Source: Pseudomonadota bacterium (GTDB lineage Bacteria > Desulfobacterota > Desulfobulbia > Desulfobulbales > SURF-16). From it: a stretch of DNA of 64,000 nt. The translations under genes were made by a program, and so were the position numbers. Shown in pieces: positions 8,593 to 15,444 of this stretch. Position 1 is the stretch's first letter. Each line of letters begins with the position of its first letter. The stretch covers positions 1-64,000 of the forward strand of contig JAHJKA010000022.1 in the NCBI GenBank assembly GCA_018822545.1, given 5' to 3'. Under the pieces are notes generated by a model. It was not told where the DNA came from and did not search any database. It saw only the letters and a list, made by a program, of their open reading frames with translations.

Positions 8593-10077
8593 ATGGCTAA
8601 CGAAGTCAGACTCCGCTTTCCCCCCAGTCCTACCGGCTATCTCCATATCGGCGGGGCACGCACGGCAATTTTAAACTGGCTTTATGCCAGAAAGCATAAC
8701 GGCAAACTTATTCTCCGCATTGAAGATACCGATGCTGAACGCTCTTCCGAGGCCTCTATCCAGGGGATTATTGACGGCCTGAACTGGCTGGGGATTGACT
8801 GGGACGAGGGTCCCTATTTCCAGACCGACTTTACCGCCGATCATCAGGCCGCAGCCCAGAAGTTGCTTGACTCCGGCAAGGCCTATAAATGTTTCTGCAC
8901 CAAGGAAGATCTTGAGAGCAAACGGGAGGCCGCCCTTGCTGCCAAAGATGAGGTCAGATATGACGGGACCTGCAGCAAGCTGACTCCGGCAGAGATTGCC
9001 CAAAAAGAGACGGCCGGCATTCCGTCTGTGGTGCGCTTCAAGGTCCCTGATCGTCCCGGCGCCGTGGGCTATAACGACCTCGTTCTCGGCCGCATCGAAC
9101 AGCAGTACAGCGAGATCTCCGACTTTGTCATTGTCCGCTCCAACGGCAAGCCCCTCTATCTGCTGTGCAACGTGGTGGATGATATCCGCGACCGCATCTC
9201 CCATGTCGTCCGCGGCCAGGACCACAAGGACAACACCAACCGCCAGATCCTCCTTTACGAGGCCCTGGGGGCGCCGATTCCGTTTTTTGCCCACATGCCG
9301 CTGACCTTGGACACCAACAAGGCCAAGATCTCCAAGCGCAGCCATGGCGAGATCGTTGCCGTGCAATGGTATCGCGATAACGGCTTTCTGCCCTGGGCCA
9401 TGGTCAATTTTCTCTGCCTGCTGGGCTGGTCTGCCGGTGATGATCGCGAGATCTTTTCCAAGGAGGAGTTGCTTGCGGCCTTCACCCTGGAGCGCATCAA
9501 CAAATCAAACGCCATTTTTAATTACAAAAAGGATGACCCGAAATTCATCACCGACCCCAAACTCCTCAACATCAACGGCCATTATCTGCGCACCATGGAC
9601 CTTGGAGAGCTGGCCGTCCTGGTTAAAAAAGAGCTGGAGGCTGCCGGCATCTGGCAGGCGGCCTATGAGGCTGAGCGCAAAGAGTGGTTTTTAACCACCC
9701 TGGACATGACCCGCGAACGTTTCTACACCTTGAAAGATTTTGTCACCCAGGGCCGGGCCTGGTTTACCGACGATTTTGAAATGTGCCCCAATGCCTTAAA
9801 GAAAAACATCCTCAAACATCCTGAGCTGAAGGAGTGGTTGCCAGAACTAGCCGACAGAATGGACGCCCTTGCGGTGTTCAGCGCTGAAGAAACAGAGAAG
9901 GTAGCCCGGGACTTTGCCGAGGGAAAAGACATCAAACCGGGCATCCCCATCAACGGCTCCCGGGCGGTGTTAACCGGCCAGATCAAGGGGCCCTCTATGT
10001 TTGAAGTCTTTGCCCATCTCGGCAAAGAGACCGTGGTCCGCCGTTTACGTGAGGCAGGCAAGTGGTTTGCAGAATAA
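8593..10077 (+). CDS. gltX: glutamyl-tRNA synthetase
   Basis: Class Ic aminoacyl-tRNA synthetase of 494 aa that charges tRNA-Glu. The HIGH-type motif reads YLHIGGART near residue 17 and the KMSKS-type motif reads KISKRSHGE near residue 245. The anticodon-binding helical region fills the C-terminal third. ATG 8593 follows an AAGGAC ribosome site. glnS lies next on the same strand, so this genome charges tRNA-Gln directly rather than relying only on transamidation. Confidence 0.96.
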   Translation: MANEVRLRFPPSPTGYLHIGGARTAILNWLYARKHNGKLILRIEDTDAERSSEASIQGIIDGLNWLGIDWDEGPYFQTDFTADHQAAAQKLLDSGKAYKCFCTKEDLESKREAALAAKDEVRYDGTCSKLTPAEIAQKETAGIPSVVRFKVPDRPGAVGYNDLVLGRIEQQYSEISDFVIVRSNGKPLYLLCNVVDDIRDRISHVVRGQDHKDNTNRQILLYEALGAPIPFFAHMPLTLDTNKAKISKRSHGEIVAVQWYRDNGFLPWAMVNFLCLLGWSAGDDREIFSKEELLAAFTLERINKSNAIFNYKKDDPKFITDPKLLNINGHYLRTMDLGELAVLVKKELEAAGIWQAAYEAERKEWFLTTLDMTRERFYTLKDFVTQGRAWFTDDFEMCPNALKKNILKHPELKEWLPELADRMDALAVFSAEETEKVARDFAEGKDIKPGIPINGSRAVLTGQIKGPSMFEVFAHLGKETVVRRLREAGKWFAE

Positions 10078-10135
10078 GCACCGCTTGCCTTAGGTCATCG
10101 CTGCAAAAAAGCGATTTGTTTTCCAGATGAATTTC

Positions 10136-10163
10136 CATGCCGGAACAAGCTTGCGCCGGCATG
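10136..10163. repeat. hairpin between gltX and glnS
   Basis: CATGCCGG and CCGGCATG form a perfect 8-bp stem around a 12-nt loop. There is no T run, so it may be a processing hairpin or a short dispersed repeat. Confidence 0.4.
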
Positions 10164-10213
10164 CCAGCGGGCCTCCCTGCCTTCAATAAATAACCAAAAT
10201 ACTAAAAAAAACT

Positions 10214-11899
10214 ATGTCCGAACTCGTCACAAGCCATCTTGACTTTATCCGTACCATTGTCGCCCAGGATCTGGCCGCCGGCAAAAATGACGGTCGCCTG
10301 GTGACCCGCTTCCCGCCTGAGCCAAACGGCTATCTCCATATTGGTCATGCCAAGTCCATCTGCCTTAACTTCGGCCTGGCCCAGGAATATCCCCAGGGTA
10401 TCTGTCATATGCGCTTTGACGACACCAATCCGGAAAAAGAAGACGTCGAATACACCGAATCGATCCTGGCCGACGTCAAGTGGCTGGGCTTTGACTGGGG
10501 TGCCAACCTCTTTTACGCCTCCGACTATTTTGATAAGCTCTATGATTATGCCCTGCAGCTCATCAAGATGGACAAGGCCTATGTCTGCAGCTTAAATGCC
10601 GAAGAGATGCGCGCCTACCGCGGCACCCTGAAAGAACCTGGCAAAAACAGCCCCTACCGCGACCGAAGTGTTGCAGAGAATCTTGCCCTTTTTGAAGACA
10701 TGAAAAACGGCAAATTCAGCGACGGGGAACATGTGTTACGGGCCAAGATCGACATGGCATCGCCCAATATCAATATGCGCGATCCGATCATCTACCGCAT
10801 CCGCAAGGTTTCCCATCACCGCACCGGCGACAGGTGGTGTATCTATCCGATGTATGATTATACCCACTGCCTTTCTGATGCCATGGAGAAGATCACCCAC
10901 TCCCTCTGCACCCTGGAATTCGCCGATCACCGTCCCTTGTATGATTGGGTGCTTGACACCTTGCAGACCCCCTGCCATCCCCAACAGATCGAGTTTGCCC
11001 GGCTGAACCTCAACTTCACGGTGATGAGCAAACGTAAACTCATGCAGCTGGTGAACGAAAAACGGGTGGGCGGCTGGGATGACCCCCGCATGCTGACCAT
11101 CTCAGGTCTCAGGCGGCGGGGTTATACGCCGGCCTCCATCCGTAACTTCTGTGCGGAGATCGGTCTTGCGAAACGGGAAAGCCGCATTGACATGGGCGTT
11201 CTTGAAAACGCCATCCGCAACGATCTCAACGATAGCGCCCCCCGGCGCCAGGCCGTTCTCAAGCCGCTGAAGGTGGTTATTTCAAACTATCCGGAAGAAA
11301 AGGAAGAGGAGCTGGAGATTGGCAACCATCCCAAAGACCCGAACATGGGCACCAGGATGATCCCCTTTTGTCGGGAGATTTACATCGACCATGATGATTT
11401 CATGGAAGAACCACCCAAGAAATTCTTCCGCCTCAGTCCCGGTCGGGAGGTTCGCCTGCGGGCGGCCTATTTCATCACCTGCGACGAGGTTATAAAAGAT
11501 AAGAGTGGGGCGGTTGTCGAGTTGCGCTGCAGCTATGATCCGGCCAGCCGTGGCGGTTCATCACCGGATGGACGCAAGGTCAAGGGCACCCTGCACTGGG
11601 TCTCGGCCCGTCATGCCCTGGACGGGGAAATTCGTCTTTATGACCGCTTGTTTAACAAGGAAAACCCAGAAGATGACCCTGATGTGGATTTTAAGGAAAA
11701 TCTTAACCCTGACTCCCTGCAAATCCTGCCACACTGCAAGCTGGAGCCGTCTCTGCTTGAGGCCAGCGTTCATGATTATTTCCAGTTTGAACGGGTTGGT
11801 TTTTTCAAACTGGACAGCAAGGAGAGCGCGCCGGGCAAACCTGTTTTCAACCGCACAGTCACCCTGCGTGACACCTGGGCTAAACTGAGCGACACATAG
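10214..11899 (+). CDS. glnS: glutaminyl-tRNA synthetase
   Basis: Charges tRNA-Gln with glutamine. The 561-aa length is typical. The catalytic domain carries [11 protein letters not shown] near residues 38-48 and the KMSKS-type loop VMSKRK near residue 272; the C-terminal half is the two-barrel anticodon-binding region (for example [17 protein letters not shown]). It follows gltX by about 135 bp and is convergent with fbp. GlnS is patchily distributed in bacteria. Confidence 0.96.
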
Positions 11900-13382: not shown

Positions 13383-14939
13383 TCAGCTAAAAAAACAGTA
13401 GGGGTCCTTTTCACTAAAAAAATCAAGCCCCATGCCATGGGTTACGGCCAGACAGCCGCCACAGGCAGCCCGTATCTTACAACCGTCGCAGGCCGCAGAT
13501 CCTGCCCTGTAGCGCTCGCCAGCCTCGGAATGATAGATCTCAGAGAGTGTGTTTTCACAGATATTGCCCATATATGATGGGAATTTACGACAGGCATGAA
13601 CCTCTCCCTCAGCCAGCAGGGACAGAAAATTGAAAGCCGCACCACAGCCATAACCGGTACACCCGCCAAAAGAAGAGCGGCCTTCGCGGGCAAACAACGC
13701 ATTGAGGTGGTTATCTTTGAGTCCCATGCAGGGGTTGTCCAGGGAGGCCGTATAATAACGCCGCAGAAAATCTTCATAGCCTTGGGTAGGGGCAGAGAGC
13801 AGCTGCGCGCCCTCACCCACCATGGCCAGACGGTTGAAGTTAAAGAGATCAACCTGGTTTCTGAGCACTTCAGCAAGGGGCAAAACCTGTTCTTGATTCT
13901 CCCTGGTCAGGGTCAGCATAACCATGGAATAGATAGCAAGCTCTTTCAAAATGGCCAGAAACTCGATGATCCGCTGGAAATGCCCGGCACCGCGAATATG
14001 GTCATTATGCTCCGCAAGGCCTTCCAGGCTGACCTGATAAAACTCTAAAGGCTGAATGGCCTGTAACTCTTCAAGCACCTCCCTTGACGTGGGATTGCCG
14101 AGAATAGCCAGCTGAAAACCACGCTCAGAGGCGGCCTGATAAAGCTCGCTGAAACGGGGGTAGAGCAACGGGTTGCCACCGGTGAAGGTTACCTGACCAT
14201 AGACATGGTGCTCGCGACAAAAAGACCGGAAATCATCAAGAATGGTGAGGGCCTGGGTAAAGTCGACGGCCTTGCGGCTCGTCCGGTCATAACAATGCTT
14301 ACAGTGCAGATCACAGGCCTGGGTGATATGCCATTGCAGGGTAAAGGCCGACGAGGAGAGATACCTCTTGGAGGTGAAATCATTTTCCTTAAAAACAGCA
14401 GGATCGCGGCGAATGGTGGTTGCCGGCACCAGGATATACTCCTCCTGTTCCGCCCGCTCAAGAATACGGTCAAGATAGGCAAAAGTCACCTGGTGCTCCC
14501 TGGCCGCCTGGGCCAAGTCGATATTCTCCTCAACAAGCTTTAATGCCAAAAGATCCTGGGGCCCGGCATTCTTATAACGCACCGCACCATTGGTTTGACG
14601 CCAGACCAATACCAACTGTTCGCCTGGTTTGCCCTCTTCATCACGCCCGGCCAGAATGGGAGCGAGATTCTGCCAATCAAACTGGGCAATACGTAAACTT
14701 GGATTAAGGACGATCTTATCAGCGGGTGGGGCCAGATCAACATCGAGCCGTTCCACTGCAACCAGCAACTGCTCGAGACGGGCAAGATCGGGGAGAAAGG
14801 CGGGTAGGTGTAAATCATCAACATGGTTGGCCAGCCAGTCAGCCATATCCAGGGACAACTCCTCATCATGGGCCTGAAGGGCTTGACAAAGAATTGCCAG
14901 GGAACGAGGGTAATCGGAAATCATATCTCTGCGTGCCAC
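13383..14939 (-). CDS. sbtM: radical SAM/SPASM peptide maturase, SbtM-like (selenobiotic system)
   Basis: 518-aa radical SAM enzyme with CxxxCxxC at C209, C213 and C216 (ACDLHCKHCYD) for the 4Fe-4S/SAM cluster. Its cysteine-rich C-terminal SPASM/twitch region (GGCTGYGCG, then CDGCKIRAACGGC) would hold auxiliary clusters. The N-terminal 190 residues include a helical section and a possible winged-helix, PqqD-like recognition element near 105-170 (inferred). It matches what I remember as the thio(seleno)oxazole/'selenobiotic' maturase family SbtM. Its likely substrate is the four-Sec peptide encoded immediately upstream on the same strand. The frame opens with GTG 14939; ATG 14924 is an alternative. 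A terminator separates it from the peptide gene, suggesting partial read-through. Confidence 0.82.
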   Translation of the reverse strand: MARRDMISDYPRSLAILCQALQAHDEELSLDMADWLANHVDDLHLPAFLPDLARLEQLLVAVERLDVDLAPPADKIVLNPSLRIAQFDWQNLAPILAGRDEEGKPGEQLVLVWRQTNGAVRYKNAGPQDLLALKLVEENIDLAQAAREHQVTFAYLDRILERAEQEEYILVPATTIRRDPAVFKENDFTSKRYLSSSAFTLQWHITQACDLHCKHCYDRTSRKAVDFTQALTILDDFRSFCREHHVYGQVTFTGGNPLLYPRFSELYQAASERGFQLAILGNPTSREVLEELQAIQPLEFYQVSLEGLAEHNDHIRGAGHFQRIIEFLAILKELAIYSMVMLTLTRENQEQVLPLAEVLRNQVDLFNFNRLAMVGEGAQLLSAPTQGYEDFLRRYYTASLDNPCMGLKDNHLNALFAREGRSSFGGCTGYGCGAAFNFLSLLAEGEVHACRKFPSYMGNICENTLSEIYHSEAGERYRAGSAACDGCKIRAACGGCLAVTHGMGLDFFSEKDPYCFFS

Positions 14940-14952
14940 CTGATGGGAAAAC

Positions 14953-14992
14953 TATAAAAAAAACGGGTTTACCGCCACCAGCGGTAAACCCG
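14953..14992 (-). terminator. strong terminator/attenuator between the selenopeptide and its maturase
   Basis: A 12-bp perfect stem (CGGGTTTACCGC / GCGGTAAACCCG) with a 5-nt loop is followed on the minus strand by eight Ts. It lies 14 bp before the maturase start. Such placement lets the short peptide message greatly exceed the maturase message. Confidence 0.85.
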
Positions 14993-15004
14993 ACGCACAA
15001 CATG

Positions 15005-15023
15005 AGAGTGCAACCTGCACTCT
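15005..15023. repeat. 8-bp hairpin in the selenopeptide 3' region
   Basis: AGAGTGCA and TGCACTCT pair perfectly around a 3-nt loop, between the peptide stop codon and the terminator. It could stabilise the 3' end of the peptide mRNA. Confidence 0.4.
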
Positions 15024-15063: not shown

Positions 15064-15378
15064 CTATTTGCTGCTACCTCAGCTTGAGCCTGCTGCATCT
15101 TTTTTCTTTTCGACACTCCCGGTGTCGTCTTTTGTGCCACCTCAGCTGGAGGCGGCTGGATCAGCCGCCTTCTTTTCGTCAGCGCTCACGGCGCTGTCTT
15201 TTGTGCCACCTCAGCTTGATCCTGTCTGATGCTGTTCCCCGTCGGCGCCACCTGCGCCGGTTTTAGGCGGGCCTCAACTACTGCCGGCATGTGCCCCAGG
15301 AATAGCAACTCCTGCTCCGGCAATAAGTCCGGCGAGACCGAACCGTGCCAAAGTTTTCTTGAGCTCCTTGATTTCCAC
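15064..15378 (-). CDS. sbtA: multi-selenocysteine RiPP precursor peptide, SbtA-like (four in-frame UGA)
   Basis: 104 codons from GTG 15378 to TAG 15064-15066, read through four in-frame TGA codons (codons 35, 56, 79, 100; plus-strand positions 15274-15276, 15211-15213, 15142-15144, 15079-15081). GGAGG lies 6 nt before the GTG. Residues 1-31 look like a leader or Sec signal: basic start (KELKK, R12), hydrophobic FGLAGLIAGAGVAIPG, then AHA as a possible cleavage point. The rest is four units, each with Ser-Ser-Sec-Gly; units 2 and 3 share SSUGGTKD. Linkers of about 15 residues are rich in Lys, Asp, Ala and Gly. Each of the first three TGAs has a SECIS-like hairpin at identical spacing. The adjacent maturase gene fits the SbtA/SbtM 'selenobiotic' class recalled from the literature. 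A pseudogene is unlikely: four stops in the same codon context would not arise by decay. Confidence 0.88.
15111..15127 (-). promoter_or_regulatory. SECIS-like hairpin for the third UGA
   Basis: On the minus strand CGACAC and GTGTCG form a perfect 6-bp stem with loop CGGGA, starting 14 nt after the TGA at 15142-15144. The loop begins 20 nt from the UGA and has G as its second base, fitting the bacterial SECIS rules. Confidence 0.78.
15180..15196 (-). promoter_or_regulatory. SECIS-like hairpin for the second UGA
   Basis: CAGCGC and GCGCTG form a perfect 6-bp stem with loop CGTGA, starting 14 nt after the TGA at 15211-15213. It has the same architecture as the first and third but a different stem sequence. 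Confidence 0.78.
15243..15259 (-). promoter_or_regulatory. SECIS-like hairpin for the first UGA
   Basis: CGGCGC and GCGCCG form a perfect 6-bp stem with loop AGGTG, starting 14 nt after the TGA at 15274-15276. The AGGT loop resembles the apical loop of the classical fdhF SECIS. Confidence 0.8.
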
Positions 15379-15444
15379 GTTTTTCCTCCATTAACCAAAG
15401 ATTAAGAGAGATGCGAAGATTGCAGCTTACCAACCTCCACCCTT

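Follow-up and report, generated by a model that had tools for sequence, protein, structure and literature searches.

The SbtA/SbtM thio(seleno)oxazole family of ribosomally synthesized and post-translationally modified peptides (RiPPs) was reportedly described by Lewis et al. (2021, Biochemistry 60:3347), and its details as given here follow reviews. We identified a gene of this family, sbtA, in a 64,000-nucleotide stretch (the window) of contig JAHJKA010000022.1 from a sulfate-reducer-type bacterium of the Desulfobulbales (assembly GCA_018822545.1). Judging from its sequence, it very probably encodes a precursor with several selenocysteine (Sec) residues, inserted at UGA codons, that is a substrate of the enzyme SbtM. 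Cys and Sec peptides treated with SbtM in vitro lose four hydrogens, and nuclear magnetic resonance of the Cys product showed a thiooxazole (PMC11002830). An initial annotation of the window was right to name this family, which it took to be described bioinformatically; the description is also biochemical. Absorbance at 305 nm has placed the SbtM product with the 5-thiooxazole captophorins (PMC12668002). The related bufferins carry signal peptides, have no dedicated protease and contain several copper-binding 5-thiooxazoles (PMC12668002, PMC12538549).

Reviews describe bacterial selenoproteins as containing one or two Sec residues and place the insertion signal, the bacterial selenocysteine insertion sequence (SECIS), within the coding region, 16–37 nt after the UGA (PMC13188914). 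The SbtA family is listed in a review table with two Sec (PMC13188914). A parallel for multiple insertion is eukaryotic selenoprotein P, which like SbtA has several Sec in one polypeptide, exported as SbtA presumably is, and SECIS elements in the 3' untranslated region (UTR). However, selenoprotein P uses two 3'-UTR elements for all of its UGAs (PMC5133445), whereas SbtA generally has one per UGA, and the two are not homologous.

The analysis draws on sequence, predicted structure and the literature. The window shares with the described family a leader that fits the curated model, an adjacent sbtM, Ser/Gly-Sec-Gly/Ser sites and SECIS-like hairpins after the UGA codons. It differs in having four Sec codons rather than the two of the review table, and in the place of its putative last SECIS, a 3'-UTR position past a hairpin that includes the stop codon. 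Codons 1–27 match the NCBIfam hidden Markov model (HMM) for the SbtA leader, TIGR04081, at 36.3 bits (cut-off 30.5), and the product of the next downstream gene, on the same strand, matches the SbtM model TIGR04082 at 691 bits (cut-off 350). By both curated cut-offs sbtA is a member of the known family. No second SbtA above the cut-off was found in the source genome.

The four UGA codons occur as AGT-AGT-TGA-GGC, TCA-AGC-TGA-GGT, TCC-AGC-TGA-GGT and TCA-AGC-TGA-GGT, all reading Ser-Ser-UGA-Gly, and are separated by 21, 23 and 21 codons. When the remaining codons were shuffled 100,000 times, a Ser-Ser-TGA-Gly context never arose at more than two of the four TGAs, and at two in three of the shuffles. 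The initial annotation had described this GTG-to-TAG frame with its GGAGG, its TGA at codons 35, 56, 79 and 100 and the identical context repeated every 21–23 codons, and had argued that the stops are not random; re-reading of the sequence and the shuffles bear it out. Its coordinates are real, and lie on the minus strand, which it had left unstated. It had also expected standard annotation to leave the region blank or wrong. A plain open reading frame (ORF) caller does return only unrelated frames and misses sbtA; however, NCBIfam models both sbtA and sbtM.

The genes selA, selB, selC and selD, proposed earlier as a check, are all present in the source genome. Profile matches identify selB (365 bits), selA (625 bits) and two copies of selD, and the tRNA-Sec (selC) scores 72.8 bits against a gathering score of 47. 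The second selD (source genome contig C5:14986–15903, minus strand) contains one in-frame TGA and probably encodes a Sec-containing SelD.

We collected 81 distinct SbtA sequences upstream of SbtM, at loci drawn from 395 genomes of the phylum, 22 of the family and a named GTDB collection. Two cultured relatives, Desulfofustis glycolicus and Desulfospira joergensenii, are represented in these loci. The number of Sec residues is zero in two sequences, one in five, two in 30, three in 32, four in ten, five in one and six in one; L086 and L090 are counted with four each after over-extended frames were trimmed from five, and the status of the last UGA is uncertain in a handful of sequences where a stop codon directly follows it. 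The four Sec of the window SbtA are within the normal range of the family and unexceptional. At three loci (L022, L023 and L045) two distinct sbtA genes lie upstream of one sbtM. Homologues with Cys at sites equivalent to the UGAs, another check proposed at the outset, were found: Cys replaces Sec throughout in L116 and L118 and partly in L066 and L105, and L021 and L049 carry Cys at the last site. The all-Cys SbtA of L118, with its SbtM, is from a metagenome-assembled genome (MAG) of the Sedimentisphaerales, outside the sulfate-reducer groups, that has no full-length SelB match. A rule that all-Cys SbtA occurs only without selB is not general, as the L116 genome has selB.

The reading frame is maintained in the congeners, which are mostly Desulfobulbaceae MAGs with SbtM 72–84% identical. 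We aligned the window with L060, L058 and L059 (four species in all), and every coding indel is a multiple of three. The four UGA positions of the window are TGA at four sites in L060, two in L058 and three in L059, and a fifth Sec unit has been added in L060. After the first UGA, the codons that differ from the window are 8 synonymous to 8 non-synonymous in L060 and 19 to 10 in L059, where 23% synonymous would be expected at random; the ratio in L058 (10 to 19) indicates weaker constraint. One internal site has changed from TGA to GGA (Gly) in each of two congeners, the third in L058 and the second in L059, and the last UGA is lost in L058. In the hairpin after the changed site, one pair is broken in L059 and only the outermost pair is gone in L058.

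The three internal UGA codons of the window are followed by hairpins resembling the standard bacterial SECIS, which has a 4–16 bp stem with G[G/U] in a small loop (Table 1). All three fit a strict definition (a stem of at least 5 bp with a G[G/U] loop, 16–37 nt after the UGA). Such strict hairpins follow 127 of the 134 internal UGAs in the 81 SbtA sequences, compared with 28.6 ± 4.7 when codons were resampled synonymously; among 462 TGA codons that serve as ordinary stops in SbtA loci, 12.6% have one. The loop begins mostly 20 nt after the UGA throughout the family. Standard pairs changed on both sides number 165, against a mean of 57.8 and a maximum of 77 in shuffled alignments, counts that are inflated by related sequences, and shifting the register destroys the pairing. 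The second hairpin of the window itself shows a compensatory change, from C-G to U-A, in L060. A peptide motif, GA[GV][SG][TA], follows each Sec, overlies the hairpin exactly and is missing in both all-Cys peptides. Because motif and hairpin coincide, a constraint on the RNA explains the motif better than a function of the peptide would. No RNA family in Rfam matched the hairpins above its gathering score.

Some relatives have pairs of UGA codons only 4–8 codons apart: codons 35 and 40 in L032, L029 and L044, 38 and 42 in L094, 40 and 46 in L110, 35 and 43 in L049, and 98 and 103 in L030. The sole SECIS-like hairpin of several pairs sits about 20 nt past the second UGA, which puts the first at a distance of 32–35 nt. 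From this arrangement, two close UGAs may share one SECIS.

At the UGA codons near the C-terminus a strict hairpin is present in 74 of 78 cases, compared with 10.2 ± 3.0 in dimer shuffles. Its loop lies past the stop codon in 70 of the 78, and in 48 of those 70 the whole stem does. These sequences suggest a feature that appears to be new, a SECIS for the last Sec located past the stop codon, which would be family-wide and displaced to 62 nt in the genus of the window. The terminal sites would in these respects differ from the standard bacterial SECIS.

In the window, the stretch at the usual distance from UGA100 has no SECIS-like hairpin. Three helices in the 3'-UTR are kept in the four congeners: one containing the stop codon, a hairpin with an AGGUU loop, and a terminator. 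Over these, 93.7% of cells can pair. Nine pairs are changed on both sides, where shuffles give 3.2; the stop-codon helix accounts for six of the nine and the AGGUU hairpin for two. If the stop-codon hairpin is looped out as a spacer, the AGGUU loop is about 19–21 nt from UGA100, as at the internal sites. The stop-codon helix starts about 11 nt after UGA100, and the ribosome occludes approximately 11 nt (PMC4513850); the helix would begin near the end of the ribosome's mRNA tunnel. All three species that retain the last UGA have the AGGUU loop, which is altered in L058, where this UGA is lost. We propose that the AGGUU hairpin is a displaced SECIS, on the strength of four species and one loss event, and on balance favor decoding of the last Sec in this genus by an element past the stop codon, 62 nt away, which the stop-codon hairpin would fold to about 20 nt.

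Decoding of the fourth UGA taken alone is less certain than the reading of sbtA as a multi-Sec precursor. The UGA at codon 100 might go undecoded, in which case the peptide may have three Sec residues and end at this UGA, or it might be served by the stop-codon hairpin. The empty usual distance fits this alternative, as does the placement of the displaced hairpin beyond the 16–37 nt model (PMC13188914), and in L059 the stop-codon hairpin carries a GGU loop at 30 nt. However, L060 and L059 share with the window both the TAG and the codons that follow UGA100, and the stop-codon hairpin has no conserved loop. GUGC-AGGUU-GCAC is retained in the three species with the last UGA, its loop disappearing together with the UGA in L058, and in the sister group L052 the hairpin GUGC-AGUCU-GCAC stands 21 nt from the UGA with no displacement. 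We regard the alternative as unlikely, though well worth keeping in view, and retain the displaced SECIS as the preferred reading.

SbtM contains radical SAM (S-adenosylmethionine) and SPASM domains, and its CxxxCxxC and SPASM cluster cysteines are invariant across 39 homologues. In an AlphaFold2 model (pLDDT 89.8) three strands followed by three helices precede the radical SAM domain, and the best match among solved structures is the thioether-peptide maturase 5wgg, over 468 alignment columns. Based on this fold and match, the N-terminal region is probably a leader-binding domain resembling the RiPP recognition element (RRE). SbtA would resemble the captophorins/bufferins in having several oxidized Cys (or Sec) sites per peptide, the ring type reported for the SbtM product and no dedicated protease. 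However, the MNIO (DUF692) enzyme with a DUF2063 partner that matures those peptides was not found here; the adjacent enzyme is a radical SAM/SPASM protein, and Sec stands in place of Cys. SbtA is not a member of that group and would be at most a functional analogue.

The window leader ends in AHA followed by GSS, an AxA-like sequence. Among the 81 leaders, 39 contain a lipobox pattern, a few of these matches being doubtful, with the Cys at exactly position 29 in 32. We found no conserved exporter, leader protease or immunity gene around 96 SbtM loci, and besides sbtA and sbtM no real neighbor is common to more than about seven of them. The signal-peptide-like leaders and this absence of conserved export, protease and immunity genes suggest that the product is not a bacteriocin but a peptide that is exported and may bind metals. 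By analogy with captophorins and bufferins, we tentatively rank an exported metal- or redox-active selenooxazole peptide as the likeliest role, above a bacteriocin.

In the selenobacteriocin reading, cleavage would free the modified peptide from its leader, and once secreted it would kill competitors. TIGR04081 is listed as 'Selenobacteriocin' in a 2026 review (PMC13188914), and antimicrobial activity is frequent among small modified peptides that are secreted. The gene neighborhoods just described argue otherwise, as does the Cys near position 29 in about half of the leaders, a lipobox that would leave the product membrane-anchored. We consider a bacteriocin improbable.

A decayed gene with the UGAs as genuine stops would agree with the failure of ordinary ORF calling to yield a gene here, but is extremely unlikely given covarying SECIS-like hairpins at nearly all UGAs, a frame kept in relatives, matches to curated HMMs and a motif present in 81 distinct sequences; the comparisons with relatives refute it. 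Chance placement of the stops was ruled out by the codon shuffles, the homologues and the covariation. Reassignment of UGA was also rejected because TGA is an ordinary stop in the source genome, terminating 14 of 46 long frames of the window, and a tRNA-Sec is present.

The proposal of the initial annotation, a four-Sec SbtA precursor beside SbtM, is supported by both HMM matches, the selenium genes, the SECIS-like hairpins (the last displaced) and the Cys and Sec homologues. It was right overall, and made no mention of SECIS elements, of one in the 3'-UTR or of a signal-peptide-like leader. Under the mechanism we propose, sbtA would be read through four UGAs as Sec, each with its own SECIS, three in frame and one in the 3'-UTR. 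SbtM would bind the leader, probably through the RRE-like domain, and oxidize the Ser-Ser-Sec-Gly sites to selenooxazoles, or to thiooxazoles where Cys stands for Sec. The leader would then probably act as a signal peptide of the general secretory type, with a lipobox in about half of the family, and would deliver the modified peptide to the periplasm or, in many relatives, leave it as a lipoprotein. There it would most likely bind soft metals or buffer redox or metal levels, as thiooxazole captophorins and bufferins do with copper.

Several points weigh against parts of this account. Recoding in E. coli has an efficiency of 30–40% per UGA (PMC4513850), which over four UGAs leaves only about 1–3% full-length product, and truncated forms could dominate; unless these bacteria decode UGA more efficiently, truncated peptides should be common. 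SbtM occurs in 39 of the 395 phylum genomes and SelB in 38 of those 39, the other being a MAG estimated to be 76% complete. However, this co-occurrence is weak evidence because SelB is found in 353 of the 395 genomes (89%), and we dropped it as a strong argument. The leaders were likened to signal peptides by inspection, and the metal role is argued by analogy.

The sbtA-sbtM cassette is flanked by genes for FBPase, a glycosyltransferase and a biotin ligase. The intrinsic terminator between sbtA and sbtM is strong, so the precursor transcript would exceed that of the enzyme. About 100 nt 5' of the sbtA GTG, on the minus strand, the element TG(A/C)CATACT(G/T)ATTT is kept in the four congeners and is a candidate promoter. 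Elsewhere in the window (8593–11899, plus strand) two adjoining genes resemble glutamyl- and glutaminyl-tRNA synthetases, judged from their translations.

Table 1. Features of the sbtA-sbtM locus, in window coordinates
Feature	Position	Strand	Remarks
Shine-Dalgarno GGAGG	15385..15389	minus	6 nt upstream of GTG
sbtA, putative four-Sec (UGA) precursor peptide gene	15064..15378	minus	TIGR04081; 104 codons; GTG start at 15378, TAG stop at 15066-15064
Leader, codons 1-31 (VEIKELKKTLARFGLAGLIAGAGVAIPGAHA)	15286..15378	minus	TIGR04081 region; signal-peptide-like by inspection; ends AHA, then G
UGA codon 35 (putative Sec 1)	15274..15276	minus	
SECIS-like hairpin 1	15243..15259	minus	6 bp, loop AGGUG, loop start 20 nt after UGA35
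UGA codon 56 (putative Sec 2)	15211..15213	minus	
SECIS-like hairpin 2	15180..15196	minus	6 bp, loop CGUGA, loop start 20 nt after UGA56
UGA codon 79 (putative Sec 3)	15142..15144	minus	
SECIS-like hairpin 3	15111..15127	minus	6 bp, loop CGGGA, loop start 20 nt after UGA79
UGA codon 100 (putative Sec 4)	15079..15081	minus	four codons ahead of TAG
Putative spacer hairpin containing UAG stop codon	15026..15068	minus	6/19 pairs changed on both sides in four congeners; loop unconserved
Displaced SECIS candidate for UGA100, 3'-UTR	15005..15023	minus	AGAGUGC-AGGUU-GCACUCU, 62 nt from UGA
Intrinsic terminator between sbtA and sbtM	14964..14992	minus	13 bp stem, T8 tail; conserved in congeners
sbtM, radical SAM/SPASM thio(seleno)oxazole maturase	13383..14939	minus	TIGR04082; RRE-like N-terminal region in predicted model

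The SbtA family appears to supply naturally occurring bacterial mRNAs that contain two to six Sec codons, mostly each with its own covarying signal and the last of these past the stop codon. Processive Sec decoding, SECIS spacing and SECIS position become testable with short reporters. If the reading proposed here is true, a bacterial SECIS could act from outside the coding region, its distance from the UGA being fixed by how the RNA folds, in the message for an exported multi-selenooxazole peptide. Such a peptide, if made, would be a selenium-based counterpart to the thiooxazole peptides that bind copper, and the SbtA family gains a functional hypothesis other than 'bacteriocin'.
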